Program-made: the position numbers and the translations under genes
Origin: Cognatiluteimonas telluris
Lineage (GTDB): Bacteria > Pseudomonadota > Gammaproteobacteria > Xanthomonadales > Xanthomonadaceae
DNA: 59,083 nt
NCBI RefSeq assembly: GCF_011320095.1
Contig: NZ_JAANOY010000015.1
Span: 1 to 59,083, forward strand
Reading direction: 5' to 3'
The notes under the pieces: model-generated
Told to the model about the DNA's origin: nothing
The model's database searches: none
Seen by the model: the letters and a program-made list of their open reading frames with translations, nothing else
Shown: one piece after another, positions 16,887 to 55,306 of the stretch
Layout of the letters: the number at the start of each line of letters is the position of its first letter
How positions within the stretch are numbered: the first letter of the stretch is position 1

Positions 16887-16971
16887 GCGTCTCTCCTTGG
16901 ACTGCGCATGCTAACGCCAGCGCCGTTGCAATTGCGTTTTCCACTTCCACGCTCCCGGCGAAACCGCCCCG

Positions 16972-17048
16972 GCAGGAGCGGCTTCAGCCGCGAGCCCGTT
17001 TTCGAGGTCCGCAAAGTTCAGGAGCTCGCGGCTTTAGCCGCTCCTACG
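16972..17048. repeat. REP-like inverted pair upstream of phaE
   Basis: GCAGGAGCGGCTTCAGCCGC (16972-16991) faces GCTCGCGGCTTTAGCCGCTC (17024-17043), spaced by about 30 bases. The arms are near-perfect complements, so the element can form one long hairpin. It lies between the start of phaE and the end of the membrane-protein gene at 17083. Confidence 0.9.
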
Positions 17049-23812: not shown

Positions 23813-23865
23813 GACCGCCGAGCGGCGCCTGTCGCAGGCGGTGCGCCCTTCGAAGATCCCCTTTC

Positions 23866-23953
23866 GCAGGAGCGGCTTCAGCCGCGAGCTGTTCCGCATT
23901 CCATGAAAACGTCGGGGATCGGAGGAAGTCCTCGCGGCTGAAGCCGCTCCTGC
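23866..23953. repeat. REP-like inverted pair between convergent genes
   Basis: GCAGGAGCGGCTTCAGCCGC (from 23866) faces CTCGCGGCTGAAGCCGCTCC (from 23931), spaced by about 40 bases. The arms are perfectly complementary over at least 18 bases. It lies between the convergent ends of the genes at 23582 and 23980, where it could stop transcription from both sides. Confidence 0.92.
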
Positions 23954-23979
23954 CAGGGCAGGCACGACGGCGACAGCGA

Positions 23980-29127: not shown

Positions 29128-29937
29128 ATGTCCTCCGCCTTCGGCACTGAAACCGTGCTGGACGTCCGTCACTGGACGGATGCCTATTTCAGCTTCACCA
29201 CCACCCGCGACGACGGCTTCCGGTTCGAGAACGGGCAGTTCGTGATGATCGGGCTGCAGGTGCCGCAGGCAGACGGCAGCGGGAAACCGTTGCTGCGCGC
29301 ATATTCGATCGCCAGCGCAAACTGGGAGGAGCAACTGGAGTTCTTCAGCATCAAGGTGGACGATGGGCCGTTGACTTCGCGGCTGCAGCATGTCCAGCCT
29401 GGCGACACGGTGCTGGTCGGCCGCAAGCCGACCGGAACGCTGCTGCTGCATGACCTGCTGCCGGGCCGCAACCTCTACCTGCTGGGCACCGGGACCGGTT
29501 TCGCGCCGTGGCTGGCGGTGATCAAGGATCCGGAGACCTACGAGCGCTTCGACAACGTCGTGCTGACCCATGGCGTGCGCAACGCGGCCGACCTGGCGTA
29601 CCGCGACTACATCGTCAACGAGTTGCCGCGGCATGAATTCCTCGGCGAGCAGATCGCGGCCAAGTTGAAGTACTACCCGGCGGTGACGCGCGAGACGTTT
29701 ACGTTCGACGGCCGCGACCAGCGCGGGCGGTTGACCGAACTGCTCGGCAGCGGGCGTATCGCCGACGACCTCGGCCTGCCGCCGCTGGATCCGGAACACG
29801 ACCGCGCGATGCTCTGCGGCGGGCCGCAGGTGCTGGCCGATTTCCGCGCGCTGCTCGATGCCCGCGGCTTCGTCGCCGCGCCACGGATCGGCACGCCCGG
29901 GCATTACGTGTACGAGCGCGCCTTCGTCGAGAAATAG
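29128..29937 (+). CDS. fpr: Ferredoxin/flavodoxin-NADP+ reductase
   Basis: 269 residues. FAD-binding RAYSIAS, NADP-binding GTGTGFAPWLAVIKDPETYE and MLCGGP, and the class-typical end GHYVYERAFVEK, where the last residues stack on FAD. It passes electrons between NADPH and ferredoxin/flavodoxin in the cytosol, often as part of oxidative-stress defence. Single gene with its own -10. Confidence 0.94.
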   Translation: MSSAFGTETVLDVRHWTDAYFSFTTTRDDGFRFENGQFVMIGLQVPQADGSGKPLLRAYSIASANWEEQLEFFSIKVDDGPLTSRLQHVQPGDTVLVGRKPTGTLLLHDLLPGRNLYLLGTGTGFAPWLAVIKDPETYERFDNVVLTHGVRNAADLAYRDYIVNELPRHEFLGEQIAAKLKYYPAVTRETFTFDGRDQRGRLTELLGSGRIADDLGLPPLDPEHDRAMLCGGPQVLADFRALLDARGFVAAPRIGTPGHYVYERAFVEK

Positions 29938-30091
29938 GCCGGTCGCCCAAGCGTGCGCGAGGGAGCGGCGCGTTGGCGGAGCAGCTTCAGGCGCGAGCCG
30001 ATCTTCGTTGGCGTGTCGCGTCGCCTGTGCCCAAGGGCGCCCATGAAGCATGCACTTAACCTGTTCCATTAAAACTGAAACGTACGCCTTT

Positions 30092-30143
30092 GACTCATAA
30101 GAGTCTGAGTTCCTGCGACTGGCGAGGTACTAAAATAGCTACC
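30092..30143 (+). promoter_or_regulatory. lexA2 promoter region with two candidate operator palindromes
   Basis: GACTC-ATAA-GAGTC (30092-30105) is a perfect inverted repeat. GGTACTAAAATAGCTACC (30126-30143) has GGTA/TACC ends and contains a -10-like TAAAAT (30131-30136). The second palindrome abuts the ATG, so a repressor bound there would block both the promoter and the start, as expected for LexA autoregulation. Neither matches a LexA box that I can name with certainty. Confidence 0.5.
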
Positions 30144-30773
30144 ATGCCTTCCCCGCCCGACCTCACCGACCGCCAGCAGGCCATCCTCGACTTCGTCCGC
30201 GAGCGCATCGCCGCCGACGGCCTGCCGCCGACCTGGGCGGAAATCGCGCGCGCCTTCGGCTTCCGCCAGACCCGCGCGGCGCAGAAACACCTGCAGGCGC
30301 TGGAAGCCAAGGGTTACCTGGCGCTGCTGCCGGGCAAGGCGCGCGGGATCCGGTTGTCGCCGCGCTTGCAGCGCACGCCGCCGCGCGAGGATGAAGTCGA
30401 ACTGCCCATCCTCGGCCGCGTCGCCGCCGGCCTGCCGATCGGCGCCGATGCCGGCGTGCAACGCCACCTGCTGCTCGACCGCCGGCTGTTCTCGTCGCCG
30501 CCGGATTACCTGCTGCGCGTGCAGGGCGATTCGATGCGCGGGGACGGCATCCTCGATGGCGACCTGGTGGCGGTGCACCGCACGCAGGAGGCGCGCGACG
30601 GCCAGACGGTGATCGCGCGACTGGATGACGAGATCACGATCAAGCGCCTGCAGGTCACGCCCGATGGCATCCGCCTGCTGCCGCGCAATCCCGGGTACGC
30701 ACCGATCGAGGTCGCGCCCGGACAGGATTTCGCCATCGAAGGCATCTACTGCGGCCTGATCCGGGAAGGCTGA
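30144..30773 (+). CDS. lexA: LexA-type SOS repressor of the imuA-imuB-dnaE2 cassette (LexA2)
   Basis: 209 residues. N-terminal winged helix (residues ~8-70, FGFRQTRAAQKHLQALE as recognition region), cleavage site Ala95-Gly96 in GRVAAGLPI, catalytic Ser130 in GDSM and Lys167 in EITIKRLQ, so self-cleavage is intact. Its place directly before imuA (one base between) is the classic arrangement in which the repressor controls its own mutagenesis operon. The -10 is only seven bases upstream of the ATG, so the mRNA is probably leaderless. Confidence 0.93.
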   Translation: MPSPPDLTDRQQAILDFVRERIAADGLPPTWAEIARAFGFRQTRAAQKHLQALEAKGYLALLPGKARGIRLSPRLQRTPPREDEVELPILGRVAAGLPIGADAGVQRHLLLDRRLFSSPPDYLLRVQGDSMRGDGILDGDLVAVHRTQEARDGQTVIARLDDEITIKRLQVTPDGIRLLPRNPGYAPIEVAPGQDFAIEGIYCGLIREG

Positions 30774-30774
30774 C

Positions 30775-31674
30775 ATGGCGGCCGTGCTCAAACCTGCCGC
30801 GCTACAGCCGGTCGTCGACCTCGACACGCTGCTGTCCGACCGTCGCGTCTGGCGCGGCCAGCCGGCGACCGCGCCGGCGACGCCCCGACAACCCACCGGC
30901 CACGCCGCGCTGGACGCGGTGCTGCCCTGGGGCGGCTGGCCGGAAGCGGCGCTGACCGAACTGCTGTTGCCCGCCGACGGCATCGGCGAGTTGCGCCTGT
31001 TGTTGCCGACGCTGGCGCGACTGACCGGGGCCGGCCACGATATCGCCCTCGTCGCCCCGCCCTACCTGCCGTATCCCGACGGCTGGCGCCAGGCCGGCGT
31101 CGACTTCGCGCACGTGCACCTGATCGATGCCAACGCGCGCGAAGCGCTGTGGGCCAGCGAGCAATGCCTGCGCGCGGGTTGCCTGTCGGCGGTGCTGTCC
31201 TGGCCGATGCAGGCCGACGACCGCGCGTTGCGAAGGCTGCAGGTCGCGGCCGATACCGGCGGCGTGATGGGTTTCGTGTTCCGCGAGGCGCGCGCCGAGT
31301 GCAACCCGTCGCCGGCGGTGTTGCGGATCGCGATCCTGCGACAGGATCGGGAGGACAGCGGGATCCTGGCTGAGGCACGGCAACGTGCTGCGCACCCTCA
31401 TCCGCCCTTCGGGCACCTTCTCCCGCAGGGAGAAGGAAGCGCGGGAGAGTCGGGGGCGTGGAGCCCCTCTCCCCTCGGGAGAGGGGTTGGGGTGAGGGCC
31501 GGAGCGCGTGGAGACCGCGGTGCTGCATACCCTCATCCACCCTTCGGGCACCTTCTCCCGAAGGGAGACGGGATGGGCTTTGGTGCGACCACGCAGGTGC
31601 GCGTGCTCAAGTGCCGCGGCGCTACCGCGCCGGCACGGCCGGTGCTGATCACGGATCCGGCCTGCGCGGCCTGA
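30775..31674 (+). CDS. imuA: ImuA, RecA-like SOS mutagenesis protein carrying a repeat-encoded insert
   Basis: 299 residues, longer than usual. Residues 1 to ~200 give the RecA-like fold (ALDAVLPWGGWPEAALTELL, LLPTLARLTGAGHDIALV, VMGFVFREARAECNPSPAVLRIAIL). The C-terminus LKCRGATAPARPVLI is conserved in the family. Between them, about 65 residues (roughly 203-267; PHPPFGHLLPQGEGSAGE and a second PHPPFGHLLPKGDG) are translated palindromic repeats. The frame is preserved. ImuA helps recruit ImuB and DnaE2 to lesions. Confidence 0.88.
   Translation: MAAVLKPAALQPVVDLDTLLSDRRVWRGQPATAPATPRQPTGHAALDAVLPWGGWPEAALTELLLPADGIGELRLLLPTLARLTGAGHDIALVAPPYLPYPDGWRQAGVDFAHVHLIDANAREALWASEQCLRAGCLSAVLSWPMQADDRALRRLQVAADTGGVMGFVFREARAECNPSPAVLRIAILRQDREDSGILAEARQRAAHPHPPFGHLLPQGEGSAGESGAWSPSPLGRGVGVRAGARGDRGAAYPHPPFGHLLPKGDGMGFGATTQVRVLKCRGATAPARPVLITDPACAA
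31391..31572. repeat. Cluster of three palindromic repeats inside imuA, in frame
   Basis: Hairpin 1: CCTTCTCCC (31416-31424), GCA, GGGAGAAGG (31428-31436). Hairpin 2: CCCCTCTCCC (31464-31473), CTC, GGGAGAGGGG (31477-31486). Hairpin 3: ACCTTCTCCCGAAGGGAGACG around 31550-31570. Each carries the flank CCTCATCC(G/A)CCCTTCGGGCAC or its complement GGTTGGGGTGAGGG. These are intergenic-type repeats of this lineage, here translated without a stop. Confidence 0.9.
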
Positions 31675-31686
31675 TGGCGGACGGCG

Positions 31687-33108
31687 ATGTCCTGGGCCTG
31701 CATCCTCCTGCCACGCCTGGCGCTCGACGGCGTCCTGCGTCGGCATCCCGAGCCCGAGCGCCCGCTCGCGCTGGTCACGGGGCCGGCGCAGAAACGTGTG
31801 CTCGCGGCGGTGAATCCGGTCGCGGCGCGCATCGGATTGCAGGCAGGCCAGGCGTTGGCGGCGGCGCACGCGCTGGTGTCGGACTTCGCCACCGTGGAGT
31901 ACGACGCCGGCGAGGTCGCGCGCTGGCGTGATTTCCTCGCCGCCTGGGCGTATCGCTACAGCTCGCAGGTCACCACCGCCTTCGACGACGCGATCGTGCT
32001 GGAAGTCGGCGCCAGCCTGCGCCTGTTCGGGCCGTGGCCGCGGTTCGAGCGGCAGCTGCGCGAAGACCTCGTCGCACTCGGGTTTTCGCATTCCATCACG
32101 CTCGCGCCCCACCCGCGTGCGGCCTGGGTGCTGGCCGGCGCGCAGGATGGGCTCGCGCTCACGCAGCCGTCGACATTGTCCACCGCCCTCGCCCGCCTGC
32201 CGGTCGCGCAGGCGCGGCTGGAGGCGAAAACCGCGCGGGCGTTGCATGCGATGGGATTGCGCCGACTGGGACAGTTGTTCGCCGCGCCGCGCGCGTCACT
32301 GGCGCAACGATTCGGCACCGGCCTGCTGCAGCACCTGGATCGCCTGCGCGGCGATGCGCCGGACCCCTTCGACCTGTACCAGCCACCGGATCGCTTCGAC
32401 CTGCGACTGGAGCTGCCCTACGACATCGAGCATTCGCAGGCGCTGCTGTTTCCGATGCGGCGCGCGATCGCCGACCTGGGTGCCTTCCTTGCCGGCCGCG
32501 ACGGCGGGGTGCAGCGCTTCGTGCTGCACCTGGAGCATGAGGACCATCCGGCGACCGAAGTCGTGGTCGGCATGCTCGCGGCCGAGCGGGAACCGTCGTT
32601 GCTGTTCGACCTCGCACGCGGACGCCTGGAGCAGGCGCGCATTCCCGCGCCGGTACGCGGCCTACGACTGGTGGCCGAGGAACTGCCGCCGTTCGTACCG
32701 GCCGGGCGCGAGCTGTTCGACGAGCGTCCTTCGCAATCGATGCCATGGGGCACGCTGCGCGAACGCCTGCGCGCGCGGCTGGGCGACGATGCCGTTTACG
32801 CCCTCGCACCTGCCGACGACCATCGGCCGGAACAGGCATGGCGCCGCGCGCCGCTGCCGGCCGCGACGGCATCGGCCATCGAACCTGCGCCGCGTCCGAC
32901 CTGGCTGTTGCCGCGCGCGATCCCGCTGCGCGATGCCGATCCACGCCTCCTCGCCGGTCCCGAGCGCGTCGAAAGCGGCTGGTGGGATGGCGGGGACACG
33001 CGCCGGGATTATTACGTGGTCGAAACCAGCAATGGCCAGCGCGCCTGGGCCTATCGCGGCGTGGGCGAGACCGATACGCCGCTGATGCTGCACGGATGGT
33101 TTGCGTGA
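31687..33108 (+). CDS. imuB: ImuB, catalytically inactive Y-family polymerase-like mutasome hub
   Basis: 473 residues. It starts with the Y-family-like [17 protein letters not shown] but lacks the acidic triad of active DinB/UmuC polymerases, as is typical for ImuB. The little-finger-like region follows ([27 protein letters not shown]), then a candidate beta-clamp motif QSMPWG and the C-terminal ImuB domain that binds ImuA and DnaE2 ([22 protein letters not shown]). The stop overlaps the GTG start of dnaE2. No repeat insert here, unlike its two partners. Confidence 0.93.
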
Positions 33109-36100
33109 GCGACGTTCGTTCGAAGCTGGTTTCGCTCCCCTCTCCCCCCGGGAGAGGGGTTGGGGGTGAGGGGCAGCCAGGCGACGAAGTTGCAAACGCC
33201 GCTGTAAAGCTGGAGGCGGCGTCACTGTCCTGGCTCGTCCACCCCTCACCCCGACCCCTCTCCCGGGGGGAGAGGGGCTTTTACGCCGAACTCCACTGCC
33301 TGTCCGATTTCAGCTTCGGCCGCGGTGCGTCGAATGCGGCGGAGCTGTTCGAGCGTGCGCGGCAGCAGGGTTACCGCGCGCTGGCAATCACCGACGAATG
33401 CTCGCTCGCCGGCATCGTGCGCGGGCTCGAAGCCTCGCGCGCGACCGGGCTGCGGATGATCGTCGGCAGCGAGGTCACGCTCGACGGCGACAGCGACGCG
33501 CCGCTGAAACTGGTGCTGCTGGTCGAAACGCGCGCGGGCTATTCGACACTCTGTCGATTGATCACGCAGGGACGCAGGCGCTCGGAGAAAGGCGAATACC
33601 GGCTGACGCGCAACGACCTGGATGACGGCCTGCCCGGCCTGCTGGTGTTGTGGGTGCCCGATGCACGCCTGTCGCGTGCTGAAGGCGCGTGGTTGAAACA
33701 ACGGTTCGACGGCCGCCTGTGGCTGGCGGTCGAGCTGCATCGCGGACCCGACGACGCGCGGCGCCTGCAGGCGCTGGAAGCATTGGCGGCGGAGCTCGGC
33801 ATTCCCGCCGTCGCCAGCGGCGACGTGCACATGCACGTGCGGGGCCGGCGCAGGCTGCAGGACACGATGACCGCGATCCGCCATCGCACCCCGATCGCGC
33901 AAGCCGGCAAGCGCCTGTTCCCGAATGGCGAGCGCCACCTGCGCACGCAGCGCGCGTTGTCGGCGATCCATCCACGGCACCTGCTGGATGAAACCCTGCG
34001 CATCGCCGAGCGCTGCGTGTTTTCGCTGGAAACGCCGCTGGGCTACGAATATCCGCATGAGCTCGTACCCAACGGACACACGCCCCAGACCTGGCTGCGC
34101 GAACTGGTCGAGCGCGGCATGTGCGAGCGCTGGCCGGAAGGCGCCAGCCCGCAGGCGCGCGCGCTGATCGAAAAGGAACTCGCACTCATCCACAGGAAGC
34201 ACTACGAGCCGTACTTCCTGACCGTCCACGACATCGTCCGCCATGCACGGTCGCTCGACATCCTCTGCCAGGGCCGGGGCTCGGCGGCGAATTCCGTGGT
34301 CTGCTACGTGCTGGGCGTCACCTCGATCGACCCGGCGCGCATGGGCCTGCTGTTCGAGCGCTTCCTGTCCGACGAGCGCAACGAGCCGCCCGACATCGAC
34401 ATCGACTTCGAGCACGAGCGGCGCGAGGAGATCATCCAGTACATCTACGCGCGCTATGGACGCGACCGCGCGGCGATCGCAGCGACCGTCATCCGCTATC
34501 GCACCCGCAGCGCGGTGCGCGACGTCGGTCGCGCGCTGGGATTGCCGGAAGACCAGCTGGCGCAACTCAGCCGCAGCACCAGCGCGTGGAGCAGCGATAC
34601 GCCCTCGACGCAGCGCCTGCGCGAATACGGATTCGACCCCGACAGCGCGGTGATCCGGCGGCTGGTCGAGCTGGTCGGGCAACTGCTTGGCAAGCCGCGG
34701 CACCTGTCGCAGCACGTCGGCGGCTTCGTGATCTCCGAGCACCCGCTGCACACGCTGGTGCCGGTGGAGAACGCGGCGATGGACGAGCGCACGATCATCC
34801 AGTGGGACAAGGACGACCTGGACACGATGCAACTGCTCAAGGTCGACGTGCTGGCGCTGGGCATGCTGACCTGCGTGCGCAAGGCACTGGAGCTGGTGCG
34901 CAAGCATCGCGGCCGCGATTACACGATGGCGACGATCCCGCCGGAAGATGCCGCCACCTACGCGATGATCCAGCGCGGCGAGGTCATCGGCGTGTTCCAG
35001 ATCGAATCGCGCGCGCAGATGGCGATGCTGCCGCGGTTGAAACCGGAGACCTTCTACGACCTGGTGATCGAAGTCGCCATCGTGCGCCCGGGCCCGATCC
35101 AGGGCGGCATGATCCATCCCTACCTGCGCCGCCGGCAGGGACTGGAACCGGTCGACTATCCGTCCGAGGCGCTGCGCAACGTGCTGGCGCGCACGCTCGG
35201 CGTGCCGCTGTTCCAGGAACAGGTGATGCGCATCGCAATGGAAGCCGCCGGCTATACGCCCGGCCAGGCCGACCAGTTGCGGCGCGACATGGCGGCGTGG
35301 AAGCGCCATGGCGGGCTGGAGAAGCATCGCGATGCGCTGCTCGAAGGCATGGCCGGCAACGGTTACGCGCCCGACTTCGCCGAACGCATCTTCGAACAGA
35401 TCAAGGGCTTCGGCGATTACGGCTTCCCGGAATCGCATGCGGCGAGCTTCGCGCTGATCACCTACGTGAGCTCGTGGATCAAATGCCATGAGCAGGCCGC
35501 GTTTTCCTGCGCCTTGCTGAATTCGTTGCCGATGGGGTTCTACCAGCCACCGCAACTGGTGGCCGATGCGCGCAAGCAGGGCATCGAGGTGCGCCCGGTC
35601 GACGTGCGCTACAGCCACTGGGATTGCACGCTGGAGGAAGGACTTCCGGCCGCCTCGGCTGTTGCCCCTCTTCCGCTTGCGGGAGGGGGCCGGGATGAGG
35701 GCGCCTCACCGCTCGCCCTGCGCCTGGGCATGCGCCTGGTCGGCGGGCTGCGCGAAGCCGTCGCCCAGCGCATCAGCGCCGCGCGGGCATCAGGTGACTT
35801 CCGCGACCTGGATGACCTGGTCGCGCGCGCCGACCTGGATCGCGGCAGCCTCGACCGCCTCGCCGAGGCCGGCGCCCTGCGCGGGCTGGCCGGGCATCGC
35901 CACCGCGCGCGCTGGCAAAGCGCGGCCACCGAAAAACAACTGCCGTTGTTCGCCGCCGCGCAGGCCGTCGATGCGCGCTCCAGGTCCGAGCCGCGGATCG
36001 CGATCCCGCCACCGAGCGCCTTCGAGGACACGCGCGCCGATTACGCCAGCATCGGGCTGACACTCGGCACGCATCCCGTCGGGCTGATCCGGCGCGCATT

Positions 36101-36434
36101 GCAGCAGCGCCGTTACCGCAGCGCGCGCGAACTGGCGCAGTGGCCCGACAAGCGCCGCGCGCGCTACGCCGGCCTGGTGATCCTGCGCCAGCGCCCGCAG
36201 ACGGCCAGCGGCGTCACCTTCATGACGTTGGAAGACGAGACCGGCATGGTCAATGTCGTGGTCTGGGCGCAGGTGGCCGAACGCCAGCGCCGGGTTTTCC
36301 TCGAATCGCAGCTGCTCGCGGTCGAAGGCCGGATGGAATCGGCCGAGGGCAGCCAGCACCTGATCGCGACCCGGCTGCAAGACCTGTCGTCGCTGCTGGG
36401 CGGAGTGGCGACGGTGTCGCGGGATTTCCGCTAA
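33105..36434 (+). CDS. dnaE2: Error-prone DNA polymerase DnaE2 (ImuC) with repeat-encoded inserts
   Basis: 1109 residues from a GTG that overlaps the imuB stop. Conserved sequence begins only at [17 protein letters not shown] (about residue 60): the preceding ~50 residues are translated palindromic repeats. PHP-like domain to ~300, palm with [18 protein letters not shown] and the metal-binding [14 protein letters not shown], thumb/fingers through [17 protein letters not shown], then OB domain ([17 protein letters not shown]). A second insert, [16 protein letters not shown] (residues ~853-868), sits in a linker that varies between species. It performs error-prone translesion synthesis with ImuA/B under LexA control. 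Polymerase motifs look intact. Confidence 0.94.
33137..33277. repeat. Inverted pair of palindromic repeats encoding the DnaE2 N-terminus
   Basis: Unit 1 has CCCCTCTCCC (33137-33146) with GGGAGAGGGG (33150-33159) and the flank TTGGGGGTGAGGGG. Unit 2 is its mirror image: CACCCCTCACCCCGA, CCCCTCTCCC (33255-33264), GGGAGAGGGG (33268-33277). The two face each other across ~70 bases, so the 5' end of dnaE2 mRNA can fold into nested hairpins. Same family as inside imuA. Confidence 0.92.
35664..35711. repeat. Third in-frame repeat, in a DnaE2 linker
   Basis: GCCCCTCTTCCGCTTGCGGG, then AGGGGGCCGGGATGAGGGCGCCTCACC. A more diverged relative of the same family, read in frame as [15 protein letters not shown]. 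Confidence 0.75.
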
Positions 36435-40901: not shown

Positions 40902-43052
40902 ATGAAGCACCCGCTGCCCCTGGCGCTCGCCGCCGTCCTCGCCCTGTCCAGCCCCGCGTTCGCGGCGGGCGGAACGGACGCCGCGCCAGCGACCGCGAAC
41001 CCCTTCGCGAGCGCGAGCACACTGCCGTTCCAGGCTCCCGACTTCGCCCGGATCCACGATGCGGATTTCGCGCCCGCGTTCGCCGAGGGCATGCGCCAGC
41101 AGCTGGCCGAGGTGCAGGCGATCGCCGACAACCCGCAACCGCCGACTTTCGACAATACCTTCGTGCCGCTGGAGAAGAGCGGCCGCATGCTGTCGCGCGT
41201 CAACATGACCTTCAACGCGCTGACCTCGGCCAACACCGACGACGTGCTGCAGAAGACGCAGGAGGACGTCGCGCCGAAGCTGGCCGCGCACGCCGATGCG
41301 ATCTACCTCAATCCAAAGCTGTTCCAGCGCATCTCCGCCGTCTACGACAAGCGCGATTCGCTGGACCTCGATCCGGAATCCAGGCGCCTGGTCGAGTGGT
41401 ATTACCTGGACTTCGTCCACCACGGGGCGCGCCTGTCCGATGCCGACAAGGCCAAGCTCAAGGCCCTGAACAAGGAAGAGTCGACCCTCAGCGCCGGCTT
41501 CATCAACAAGCTGCTGGCCGGGACCAAGGCCGGCGGACTGGTGGTCGACGACAAGGCCAAGCTAGCCGGCCTGTCCGATGCCGAAATCGACGCCGCTGCC
41601 CAGGCCGCCAAGGACCGCAAGCTCGACGGCAAGTGGGTGATCCCGCTGCAGAACACCACCCAGCAGCCGGCGCTGCAGTCGCTGACCGATCGCGGCGTGC
41701 GCGAGCAGCTGTTCAATGCATCGTGGACCCGCACCGAGAAGGGCGACGGCAACGACACCCGCGACACCATCTCGCGGCTGGCGCAGGTGCGCGCGCAGCA
41801 GGCCAGGCTGCTGGGCTACGACAACTATGCCGCCTGGAAGCTCGAGGACCAGATGGCGAAGAAGCCGGAGACGGCGTTGAAATTCCTCGACGACCTGGTG
41901 CCGGCCGCGACCGCGCGCGCGCGCAGCGAGGCCGCCGACATCCAGGCCCAGATCGACAAGGACGGCGGTGGCTTCAAGCTGCAGCCGTGGGACTGGCAGC
42001 TCTACGCCGAACAGGTGCGCAAGGCCAAGTACGACCTCGACGAATCGCAGATCAAGCCCTACTTCGAGCTCGATAACGTGCTGCAGAACGGCGTCTTCTA
42101 CGCCGCCCACCAGCTGTACGGCATCAGTTTCAAGGAGCGCAAGGACCTGCCGGTGTACCAGCCGGACGTGCGCGTGTTCGAGGTGACCGATGCCGACGGC
42201 AAGCCGCTGGCCCTGTTCTACGCGGATTACTTCAAGCGCGACAACAAGAGCGGCGGCGCCTGGATGGACAACCTCGTCGGCCAGTCGAAGCTGCTGGGCA
42301 CCAAGCCGGTCATCTACAACGTCGCCAACTTCACCAAGCCGGCGCCCGGCCAACCGGCGCTATTGAGTTTCGACGACGTGACGACGATGTTCCATGAATT
42401 CGGCCATGCGCTGCACGGCATGTTCGCCGACGAGCGGTATCCGAGCCTGTCGGGCACCAATACCGCGCGCGACTTCGTCGAGTTCCCCTCGCAGTTCAAC
42501 GAGCACTGGGCGCTGGAGCCGAGTGTGTTCGCGCACTACGCCAAGCACTACAAGACCGGCGAGCCCATGCCGCAGGCGCTGGTGGACAAGATCAAGAAGA
42601 GCGACACCTTCAACAAGGGCTACGACATGACCGAGGCGATCTCGGCCGCGCTGCTCGACATGTCCTGGCACACGCTGCCGGCCGATGCGCCCAAGCAGGA
42701 CGTCGATGCCTTCGAACTGGCCGCGCTGAAGAAGAACGGCACCGACCTGAGCTACGTGCCGCCGCGCTACCGCTCCAGCTATTTCCTGCACATCTGGGGC
42801 AATGGCTACGCGGCCGGCTACTACGCGTACTCGTGGACACAGATGCTGGCCGACGACGGCTACGAATGGTTCAAGGAACACGGCGGCCTGACGCGGGCCA
42901 ATGGCGACACCTTCCGCAAGATGGTGCTGTCGCGCGGCAACACCGAGGACCTGGCGACGATGTACCGCAACTGGCGCGGACATGATCCCGACATCAAGGC
43001 GATGCTGCGCGACCGCGGCCTGGCCGGCGGGGATGAAGGCAAGACGCCCTGA
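40902..43052 (+). CDS. dcp: Exported M3 family oligopeptidase (Dcp type), copy 1
   Basis: 716 residues. Signal peptide MKHPLPLALAAVLALSSPAFA, N-terminal helical domain, zinc site TTMFHEFGHALHG (His498-Glu-x-x-His) and the third ligand Glu in DFVEFPSQFNEHW. Substrate-binding YVPPRYRSSYFLHIWGNGYAAGYYAY. It cleaves short peptides, most likely as a dipeptidyl carboxypeptidase in the periplasm. A full-length paralogue is at 45685. The two N-termini, MKHPL(P/A)LALA, are nearly identical. Confidence 0.93.
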   Translation: MKHPLPLALAAVLALSSPAFAAGGTDAAPATANPFASASTLPFQAPDFARIHDADFAPAFAEGMRQQLAEVQAIADNPQPPTFDNTFVPLEKSGRMLSRVNMTFNALTSANTDDVLQKTQEDVAPKLAAHADAIYLNPKLFQRISAVYDKRDSLDLDPESRRLVEWYYLDFVHHGARLSDADKAKLKALNKEESTLSAGFINKLLAGTKAGGLVVDDKAKLAGLSDAEIDAAAQAAKDRKLDGKWVIPLQNTTQQPALQSLTDRGVREQLFNASWTRTEKGDGNDTRDTISRLAQVRAQQARLLGYDNYAAWKLEDQMAKKPETALKFLDDLVPAATARARSEAADIQAQIDKDGGGFKLQPWDWQLYAEQVRKAKYDLDESQIKPYFELDNVLQNGVFYAAHQLYGISFKERKDLPVYQPDVRVFEVTDADGKPLALFYADYFKRDNKSGGAWMDNLVGQSKLLGTKPVIYNVANFTKPAPGQPALLSFDDVTTMFHEFGHALHGMFADERYPSLSGTNTARDFVEFPSQFNEHWALEPSVFAHYAKHYKTGEPMPQALVDKIKKSDTFNKGYDMTEAISAALLDMSWHTLPADAPKQDVDAFELAALKKNGTDLSYVPPRYRSSYFLHIWGNGYAAGYYAYSWTQMLADDGYEWFKEHGGLTRANGDTFRKMVLSRGNTEDLATMYRNWRGHDPDIKAMLRDRGLAGGDEGKTP

Positions 43053-45684: not shown

Positions 45685-47895
45685 ATGAAGCACCCGCTTG
45701 CCCTGGCGCTTGCGCTGGCCCTGGCCGCCGCCCCCGCCTTCGCCTCAGCCGCAGATGCCCCCGTGAACCAATCGCAGACCCAAGCCAACCCGTTCTTCGC
45801 CGACAGCCCGCTGCCGCTGCATTACCCGCAGTTCGACAAGATCCACGACAGCGACTTCGCGCCCGCGTTCGACCGCGGCATGGCCGAGCAGCTCAAGGAA
45901 GTCGAAGCGATCGCCAACGACCCGGCGGCGCCGACCTTCGACAACACCATCATCCCGCTGGAGAAATCCGGCCGCACGCTGACCCGCGCGGCGACGGTGT
46001 TCTTCAACCTCGTCGGTGCCGATACCAATCCGACCCGCGACAAGATCGAGGCCGCGTATTCGGCGAAGTTCGCCGCGCACCGCGATGCGATCAACCTCAA
46101 CCCGAAGCTGTTCGCGCGGATCAAGGCGCTGTACGACGGGCGCGCGACGTCGGGCATGGATCCGCAGTCAACGCGCCTGGTCGAGAAGTACTACCAGGAC
46201 TTCGTGCGCGCGGGCGCGCAGCTGTCGGACGCCGACAAGGTCAAGCTCAAGGCGATGAATGCCCAGCTCGCCGACCTCGGCACGAAGTTCAGCCAGAACG
46301 TGCTGGCCGAGGTCAACGATTCGGCGATCGTGCTGGACACCCGCGAGCAGCTCGCGGGCCTGACCGACGCGCAGATCGATGCCGCCGCGGCCGAAGCCAA
46401 GAAACGCGGCCTGGAAGGCAAGTACGTCATCACCCTGCAGAACACCACCGGCCAGCCGCCGGAAACCTTCCTGCAGGATCGCGCGGTGCGCGAAAAGCTC
46501 TACCGCGCTTCGATCGCGCGCGGCAGCCGCGGCAACCAGTACGACAACACCGGCATCGTCTCGCAGGTGATGTCGCTGCGCGCCGAGAAGGCGAAGCTGC
46601 TGGGCTACCCGAACTACGCCGCCTACAGCCTCGAAGACCAGACGGCGCAGACCCCGGAAGCCGTCAATGCCATGCTCGGCAAGCTCGCGCCACCCGCGGT
46701 CGCCAATGCCAAGCGCGAAGCGGCCGACATGCAGGCGCTGATCGACAAGGAGCAGGCCGCCAAGGGCCAGCCGACGTTCAAGCTCGAGCCGTGGGACTGG
46801 GCGTACTACGCCGAGAAGGTGCGCCAGCAGCGCTACGACTTCGACGAGACCCAGCTCAAGCCCTACCTTGAACTCGACAACGTGCAGCAGAACGGCGTCT
46901 TCTACGCCGCCAACCAGCTGTACGGGCTGACGTTCAAGGAGCGCCACGACCTGCCGGTGTACGAGCCGGACGTGCGCGTGTTCGACGTCTTCGACAAGGA
47001 CGGCAAGCAGCTGGCGATCTTCATCTCCGACATGTACGCGCGCCCGTCCAAGCAGGGCGGCGCGTGGATGAATTCCTATGTCGACCAGTCGGCGCTGACC
47101 GGCTTCCTGCCGGTGGTCGCCAACCATCTCAACATCCCCAAGCCCGCCGCCGGGCAGCCGACGCTGCTGACCTGGGACGAGGCGACGACGATGTTCCATG
47201 AATTCGGGCATGCGCTGCACGGCATGTTCTCGAACGTGGAGTACCCCTACTTCAGCGGTACCAGCGTGCCGCGCGACTTCGTCGAGTATCCCTCGCAGGT
47301 CAACGAGATGTGGGCCGACTGGCCGCAGGTGCTCGAGCACTACGCCAAGCATTACAAGACCGGCGCGCCGATCCCCAAGGACCTGCTGGACAAGGTCATC
47401 GCCTCGCAGAAATTCAACCAGGGCTTCACCACCACCGAGTACCTCGGCGCGGCGATGCTCGACCAGAGCTGGCACCAGCTGACCCCCGGCCAGGTGCCTG
47501 ATGCGGCGGGCGTGATGCCGTTCGAAGCCGCCGCGCTGAAAAAGGACGGCGTGGACTTCTACGCCGTCCCCCCGCGTTACCGCACGCCCTACTTCAGCCA
47601 CATCATGGGCGGCTACGCGGCCGGCTACTACGCCTACATCTGGTCGGAAGTGCTGGTGGCCGACAGCGTGGAATGGTTCAAGCAGAACGGCGGCCTGACG
47701 CGCGCCAATGGCGACCACTTCCGCGACACGCTGCTGTCGCAGGGCGGCAGCCAGGATGCGATGAAGATCTTCAAGGACTACACCGGCCGCGAACCGTACA
47801 TCGAACCGCTGCTGGTGCGTCGCGGACTGACTACCGGCACCGACGATTCGACGAAGCCGGATTCGCAGCCAAACGAGACGCCGCCGAAGCAGTAA
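45685..47895 (+). CDS. dcp: Exported M3 family oligopeptidase (Dcp type), copy 2
   Basis: 736 residues. Signal peptide MKHPLALALALALAAAPAFA, zinc site TTMFHEFGHALHGMF (His505), third ligand in DFVEYPSQVNEMW, and the substrate-binding YAVPPRYRTPYFSHIMGGYAAGYYAY. It is collinear with copy 1 from end to end, though diverged throughout. GAAGGGATG supplies a ribosome-binding site just before the ATG. Differences in the substrate region (for example FSHIMGG versus FLHIWGNG) suggest different preferences. Confidence 0.93.
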   Translation: MKHPLALALALALAAAPAFASAADAPVNQSQTQANPFFADSPLPLHYPQFDKIHDSDFAPAFDRGMAEQLKEVEAIANDPAAPTFDNTIIPLEKSGRTLTRAATVFFNLVGADTNPTRDKIEAAYSAKFAAHRDAINLNPKLFARIKALYDGRATSGMDPQSTRLVEKYYQDFVRAGAQLSDADKVKLKAMNAQLADLGTKFSQNVLAEVNDSAIVLDTREQLAGLTDAQIDAAAAEAKKRGLEGKYVITLQNTTGQPPETFLQDRAVREKLYRASIARGSRGNQYDNTGIVSQVMSLRAEKAKLLGYPNYAAYSLEDQTAQTPEAVNAMLGKLAPPAVANAKREAADMQALIDKEQAAKGQPTFKLEPWDWAYYAEKVRQQRYDFDETQLKPYLELDNVQQNGVFYAANQLYGLTFKERHDLPVYEPDVRVFDVFDKDGKQLAIFISDMYARPSKQGGAWMNSYVDQSALTGFLPVVANHLNIPKPAAGQPTLLTWDEATTMFHEFGHALHGMFSNVEYPYFSGTSVPRDFVEYPSQVNEMWADWPQVLEHYAKHYKTGAPIPKDLLDKVIASQKFNQGFTTTEYLGAAMLDQSWHQLTPGQVPDAAGVMPFEAAALKKDGVDFYAVPPRYRTPYFSHIMGGYAAGYYAYIWSEVLVADSVEWFKQNGGLTRANGDHFRDTLLSQGGSQDAMKIFKDYTGREPYIEPLLVRRGLTTGTDDSTKPDSQPNETPPKQ

Positions 47896-54415: not shown

Positions 54416-55306
54416 CTAACGGTTGTCGCGCTTGCCCTGCTCGTGGCGGTCGCGGGTGCTGATGCTGCCCTGATTCGCGCTCAGGCGCATCTCCTCCTGG
54501 TGCAGCTCCTGCACCTGCTCGCGGGCGGACTCCGATTCGAAGCCCGGCTTCGGCGCGGCGCCGGCATGCGAGCCGTCGTGTTCCTGCCAGGGCGGCGCGC
54601 GGCGTGCCTTGGCCTGCTTGGCCGCCAGCAGCTGCCGTGTGTTGTCCAACGCTTCCTGGGGAGTGATCGCAGCGCGCCCCGCCGCGCTGGCGGCAGCCGG
54701 GCGCCGCTTGCCGTCGCCGCCGGTGGCGCTGCCCGTCGCGGCCTGATCAGTGGCGGATTCACGGCCCGGCGCGGCCTTCTTCGCGGTCGCGACGCCAGCG
54801 CTGGCGTCGTTGCGGGACGTCGCTGCAGCGGAGGTGTTGGCTATGCGGCCCCCGGCTGCCGGTTTCCCGGTCGCCCTGCTAGCCGTGGACGCCGTCCGCG
54901 TGCCGGCTGCCGGGCGCCTGCTCGCGGTTCCGGATGGCGGGGTCACGGGGGTCGGCTTCTTCATGACAGCCGGTTTTGTCGCAACGGCTGTATCCGTCTT
55001 CGCCGCGTTGACCCGCTGTGCCAGGGTGTTCTTCGAGACACCCTTCCTGGCGACGGCCTTCTTCGCGACCGCCTTCTTCGCGACCGCCTTCTTGGCGACC
55101 GCCTTCTTGGCGACCGCCTTCTTGGCGACCGCCTTCTTGGCGACCGCCTTCTTGGCGACCGCCTTCTTCGCGACCGCCTTCTTCGCGACCGCCTTCTTCG
55201 CGACGGTCTTCTTCGCGACGGTCTTCTTCGCAGCGTCCGCCCGGCCCGGGGTCTTGCGCGCGGTCTTGCGGCGCGCCGCGGTGGAGCGTGGACTGGTGGT
55301 GGCCAT
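54416..55306 (-). CDS. Histone-H1-like Lys/Ala repeat protein
   Basis: 296 residues. Residues ~27-86 are twelve five-residue repeats, KKTVA twice then KKAVA ten times; a low-complexity Ala/Thr/Ser/Lys region follows. The last ~85 residues are different: an acidic helical segment with [30 protein letters not shown] and [20 protein letters not shown]. The repeat half resembles bacterial H1-like DNA-binding proteins (AlgP/HC2); the C-terminal half, acidic and structured, could be a protein-protein module. Its role is unknown. Confidence 0.82.
55051..55230 (-). repeat. Twelve 15-bp tandem repeats inside the H1-like gene
   Basis: Units on the plus strand read CGACCGCCTTCTT(G/C)G, twelve in a row, in frame. 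The outer units differ (GGC or GTC in place of CGC), the central ten are almost identical. An array this regular is prone to gain or loss of units, changing the length by five residues each time. Confidence 0.95.

Follow-up and report, generated by a model that had tools for sequence, protein, structure and literature searches.

REPIN-like palindromic repeats in the imuA frame of Cognatiluteimonas telluris, a probable tolerated insertion into a variable loop

The lexA-imuA-imuB-dnaE2 locus of Cognatiluteimonas telluris raises the question of how palindromic repeats came to lie within the reading frame of imuA and whether the gene has tolerated them. The locus is on the forward strand of the 59,083-nt stretch of DNA analysed here in full (the window). 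It shows lexA (30090-30773; TIGR00498 match of 188.8 bits, cut-off 110.95) as the upstream neighbour of imuA (30775-31674), whose frame is open over 299 codons. The imuA product matches the NF033429 profile with 198.3 bits (cut-off 150, E 9.7e-59), and this match, together with the gene order, identifies it as ImuA; the matched region spans residues 24-191 of the product and positions 1-169 of the 181 in the profile, and stops where the insert starts. Downstream are imuB (31687-33108), which encodes an IMS domain (PF00817) and is free of repeats, and dnaE2 (33105-36434), whose 1109-aa product matches PRK05672 with 1479.5 bits from residue 60. Three perfect TCTCCCnnnGGGAGA palindromes are located inside the open imuA frame (31419-31433, 31468-31482 and 31554-31568), as claimed by an earlier reading made without database searches (the sequence-only reading), and two more (33141-33155 and 33259-33273) directly precede the conserved dnaE2 region. 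With at most one mismatch allowed, the window has no matches to TCTCCCnnnGGGAGA besides these five; the shuffle mean is 0.07 and none of 100 shuffles reaches five. The palindrome loop has 3 nt, and pattern searches with a 4-nt loop gave nothing useful.

Alignments and the spacing to the CRG motif place the stretch that is extra relative to orthologues at 31336-31578 (+ strand, about 243 nt, right edge approximate); it is in frame and absent from the ImuA of the aligned relatives. Between the core and CRG, the window ImuA has 93 residues and most relatives have 12. The surplus is thus about 81 residues, and repeat sequence accounts for about 62 codons of it (31385-31571). The insert is therefore longer than the repeats, for which the earlier estimate was about 65 residues. 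For the left part (31336-31384, + strand, about 49 nt), a query against the genome found no second strong match (best other E 0.05), and a decayed repeat was rejected because local alignments to four reference stretches were no better than shuffles. The residues conserved on either side of the insert are in the same frame and align with orthologues, and the gene shows no sign of breakage, in agreement with the earlier view of a tolerated insertion. The predicted RNA fold of 31370-31585 has -122.9 kcal/mol vs -103.3 (sd 5.07) for shuffles, none of 200 being as low.

The state of this site in relatives was surveyed over 103 operons: the window, 20 stretches, 22 of 30 further loci (the remaining eight belong to genomes already in the set) and 60 more stretches. 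ImuB is present in 170 of the 217 family genomes. The ImuA core and CRG are 11-17 residues apart in 100 of 102 proteins and 93 apart in the window, and CRG is absent in one; hence the internal insert is unique in this sample of 102 ImuA. In G005, the closest of the relatives sampled, and in the other ImuA of the alignments, only a few residues separate PSPAxLR from VLKCRG or VRKCRG, so that the residues flanking the insert are nearly adjacent, as the sequence-only reading had predicted. In the other ImuA, length variation falls in the tail beyond CRG. On these alignments, the insert appears to sit in a variable-length loop flanked by two conserved ImuA stretches.

The element inserted in imuA belongs to a family with 41 TCTCCCnnnGGGAGA-family sites in the whole genome (reversed control, 0), a short palindrome in many copies as in REPs. 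Oriented copies show two forms. Type A contains CCCCTCTCCCnnnGGGAGAGGGG, then TTGG or similar, then GGTGAGGG, with one hairpin and a TGAGGG end. Type B contains CCTTCTCCCnnnGGGAGAAGG, then a small second hairpin, then CGGATGAGGG, with two hairpins and the same end. In imuA, repeat 1 (31395-31436, - strand) is of type B, repeat 2 (31464-31498, + strand) is of type A, and repeat 3 (31530-31571, - strand), the partner of repeat 2, was assigned to type B by comparison of oriented copies; 31520-31571 and 31385-31436 are 90% identical. By hand count, 10 of the 30 genome clusters contain at least two sites with the tag ends facing, and eight of these 10 have one A and one B (one tag is CGAGGG). Inverted pairs of the two forms are therefore frequent, about 115 bp long, and their spacer is conserved: when repeats 2 and 3 are aligned, together with their spacer, to another pair of the same genome (L056), 103 of 118 positions are identical. 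By sequence and arrangement, the imuA pair is REPIN-like. The family was described earlier as normally intergenic, and this description is supported: by one codon-usage criterion 23 of the 30 clusters are not in frame in a gene, a count that includes the dnaE2 N-terminal cluster and in which intergenic position is not proved one by one. The conserved end in the aligned copies is TGAGGG and not the GTAG or CGTC tag that marks the two REP super-families of PMC3733652. A known RNA family was also considered for the element and discarded, since only miRNA models matched, far under gathering scores. The window contains other repetitive sequences: a second family of repeats, comprising AGGAGCGGCTTCAGCCGCGAG and its inverted form, at 229-276, 1162-1245, 16955-17045 and 23857-23970; a tandem repeat with a period of 15 nt at 54979-55261; and two regions about 4.8 kb apart (40902-43022 and 45685-47829), 70-79% alike over long blocks, which are probably tandem paralogues.

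The two palindromes upstream of the conserved part of dnaE2 belong to repeat 4 (33137-33173, + strand) and repeat 5 (33242-33277, - strand), both of type A. In 82 of the 101 operons with DnaE2 read, the imuB stop shares bases with a start codon of dnaE2; in the window the overlapping codon is GTG 33105, with an in-frame ATG 9 nt earlier. No in-frame ATG, GTG or TTG is found between 33105 and YAELHC, and the frame is open through both palindromes. Because the overlapping GTG has no later start before YAELHC, these palindromes are probably translated, as parts of a 59-residue DnaE2 N-terminal extension, and most likely lie inside dnaE2 rather than in an intergenic position. The DnaE2 of G005 shows a 55-residue extension with no clean palindromes and with an in-frame TTG inside. 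A further, decayed repeat may lie in frame inside dnaE2 at 35667-35701 (+ strand, three mismatches); the pattern by itself does no better than chance (33 of 100 shuffles match as well), and the DnaE2 alignment shows extra residues here, in a stretch that is variable in other genomes too.

In-frame position in other genes was assessed with the same codon-usage criterion over 24 stretches and the window, a test that scores N-terminal cases poorly. Seven of the 30 C. telluris clusters fall in frame within genes, namely those for ImuA, MurL, a molybdopterin oxidoreductase-like protein, FGAM synthase, an ABC-F-type ATPase and ValS, and the ORF of L055; the start-codon argument makes DnaE2 a further case. 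The genome search that the sequence-only reading had proposed thus recovered five family-matched genes besides imuA with the repeat in frame. MurL, FGAM synthase and ValS are over the NCBIfam cut-offs, and the oxidoreductase and the ABC-F protein are under theirs. The first three are longer than their profiles: 476 vs 445, 1360 vs 1289 and 949 vs 856, respectively. No NCBIfam match at 1e-10 was found for L055, a doubtful ORF, and L240, and none for L264 and L265. In three other genomes, clusters of their own repeat families are in frame in two of 32 (G007), five of 42 (G010) and six of 34 (G035) cases; these sets are partial samples to which the mutasome locus was added deliberately, a further G010 cluster, located at the edge of a stretch, is not counted, and two of the six G035 cases are in one gene. 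Products of the in-frame genes in these samples include HrpA, MurG, RecD and IcmF over cut-off, and proteins resembling an E2 acyltransferase and NrdJ under it. IcmF contains in-frame REPs of unrelated families in both G010 (L267:14356-18096) and G035 (L288:1779-5723); repeated insertion is thus no peculiarity of the mutasome. An enrichment of repeats in repair genes is not established by these counts.

Repeats unrelated to the TGAGGG element are also found in mutasome genes. In two relatives (L215 and L217), such repeats lie at the DnaE2 N-terminus: that of G007 shows a GTAG-type repeat in frame, with a downstream TTG as alternative start, and that of G010 shows a CGTC-type repeat in frame. 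The GTAG type has 44 forward and 44 reverse matches in G007 and none in C. telluris or G005; the CGTC type has 46 and 39 matches in G010, and is also present in C. telluris (10 and 16). A CCCCCG-type repeat is located in the ImuA tail of four genomes of a single other genus (G035, G577, G541 and G620). Over the 103 operons, the four repeat motifs are present in imuA of five, in the imuB-dnaE2 junction of six and in imuB of none, in a survey where dnaE2 is covered in part for most genomes. Three of the six junction repeats are in frame with dnaE2 (C. telluris, G007 and G010); a stop intervenes in G035 and G577, and the G541 junction is open with a conserved start after the repeats. ImuB length is 419-488 over the surveyed operons. 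As judged from these sequences, the repeat positions in the mutasome fit permissive loops and ends.

The distribution of the element outside C. telluris was followed with the B motif GGGAGAAGGTGN{5,12}CGGATGAGGG, which is found in 37 genomes out of 398 sampled from the phylum, the reversed control giving 0 among the matches listed, and in at least 119 stretches of genome contigs. The titles among the 80 matches listed include Rhizobiales, Xanthomonadales, Legionella and Crenobacter, type B being frequent in Rhizobiales, and MAG titles among them include Geobacteraceae, Deltaproteobacteria, Acidobacteria, Planctomycetaceae and Gastranaerophilales, labels that are insecure. The second hairpin of the type B element (window 31395-31436) closes to a loop of at most 4 nt in 122 of 134 matches (L085-L203) vs 7.7 expected with shuffled spacers, and shows 17 distinct stems, with the left arm TTCTCCC in 101 of the 134; this closure and the number of stems indicate a paired, covarying structure. 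Y1_Tnp matches are present in five of nine genus genomes, with two in the genome of the window, one over cut-off, and in four of 12 element-rich genomes, the other eight being without. A RAYT was considered as the mover and rejected: the element does not flank any of the 17 Y1_Tnp loci inspected, so the RAYT transposase flanked by the repeat that is typical of REPs was not seen among them. An isolated partial motif is present at four of the 17 (L078, L080, L206 and L208). A tentative joint reading, to which we give little weight, is that the repeat represents a third palindrome super-family, marked by its TGAGGG tag and its covarying second hairpin and spread over Pseudomonadota and MAGs assigned to other phyla. 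A non-RAYT enzyme would move it, and with other REP families it would repeatedly remodel the two flexible ends of the SOS mutasome (the C-terminal part of ImuA and the N-terminus of DnaE2) and alter mutagenesis in some lineages.

The insert is very probably the result of a tolerated insertion of REPIN-like mobile repeat copies into a permissive ImuA loop. These copies would have landed in imuA after the species split from G005, and the repeat would have moved as a unit. The GC-rich element is stop-free in five of six frames, from the two forms read by hand; since the insert length is also a multiple of three, ImuA would have been extended by a Pro/Gly/Arg-rich segment, presumably disordered and near-neutral in effect, and not broken. 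Copies that break genes were presumably lost, with selection acting as a filter, and in-frame copies would remain in loops, linkers and ends. Against this reading, some 49 nt of the insert are unlike the repeat, the mover was not found at the inspected loci, and skewed ImuA rate counts would fit weaker constraint. Outside the insert, ImuA vs G005 has dN 0.133 and dS 0.674 over 207 codons (dN/dS about 0.2). The paired relative-rate counts against G005 with seven outgroups are 25:6, 14:8, 19:8, 11:10, 15:6, 19:5 and 9:4. These hint at relaxed selection on imuA, a candidate that was dismissed because in the 99-genome tree the ImuA/ImuB terminal branch ratio of the window ranks 25 of 94 scored and is no outlier; G005 ranks 89, which suggests that the skew reflects a slow G005 rather than a fast window. 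The dN/dS value and the tree ranks are thus read as continued constraint on ImuA.

An insert that weakens or inactivates ImuA, leaving a recent pseudogene with the frame still open, is accordingly unlikely: the skewed counts and the size of an insert that separates two invariant blocks speak for it, but the frame is maintained to the CRG motif and the stop, constraint is seen both in dN/dS and in the branch rank, and imuB and dnaE2 are intact. GC-rich hairpins are prone to sequencing error and the genome is a draft of 121 contigs; an assembly or sequencing artefact is nevertheless highly improbable, given that the insert lies within a 59-kb contig with unique flanks, that the frame is preserved across three repeats, that in-frame cases occur in other genes and genomes, and that G035 and G577 concur on their ImuA tail repeats. 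The repeats might instead be retained for a function, either as an added protein segment or as mRNA hairpins tuning the mutasome; the sequence-only reading had suggested that such hairpins may lower ImuA output. The unrelated in-frame repeats in ImuA or DnaE2 of other genomes, the strong predicted RNA folding and a speculation on mutators in section 17 of Di Nocera et al. (2013; PMC3733652) are compatible with this. It is rather improbable, as the same repeats enter unrelated genes, with IcmF reached in two genomes, the other 100 CRG-bearing ImuA have no internal insert, and no terminator-like site was found at 29900-33600.

Under the preferred reading of a tolerated insertion, imuA of C. telluris clearly illustrates, in nature, how a mobile non-coding repeat can become protein sequence, with an empty-site relative and about 100 orthologues for comparison. 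ImuA thereby joins the repair genes already published as decorated by repeats. The locus also suggests a correction of the dnaE2 start in the lineage and draws attention to a palindrome family of wide distribution.

Palindromes translated in frame within proteins are known from the Rickettsia palindromic elements, which PMC3733652 also cites; the C. telluris element works like them, in another host and presumably with another sequence. The RIME and Bru-RS palindromes of Rhizobiales may belong to the same family as the TGAGGG element, whose type B motif is frequent in Rhizobiales titles. Among the literature matches listed, no publication on the TGAGGG family was found, and the RIME or Bru-RS literature may describe it; none was found on REPs in ImuA either, subscription journals being mostly outside the scope of these searches. 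The sequence-only reading was right in its observation and largely right in its interpretation of a phenomenon already known. It had limited this phenomenon to Rickettsia and a few others, which does not agree with the intragenic GTAG/CGTC REPs reported in ORFs of many bacteria in the relevant parts of PMC3733652. There, REP-bearing genes include DnaE2, UvrA, RecB and tRNA synthetases, and REP clusters encode 43-82 residues; the literature consulted also includes PMC12306157 and PMC1590033. The C. telluris element differs from REPIN/RAYT systems (PMC2817692; see also PMC3116915) in that no RAYT was found beside it at the inspected loci and that eight of 12 element-rich genomes are without a Y1_Tnp match, and is like REPINs and BIMEs in its inverted pair with spacer, its many copies and its REP-like size. 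As in the corresponding parts of PMC3733652, its palindromes are short, mostly intergenic, single or dimeric, and also present in ORFs including those of repair genes; unlike them, they end in TGAGGG and not in GTAG or CGTC. The present analysis goes beyond the parts of that paper on intragenic REPs, in which ImuA is not named, by adding this gene and the survey of empty sites.
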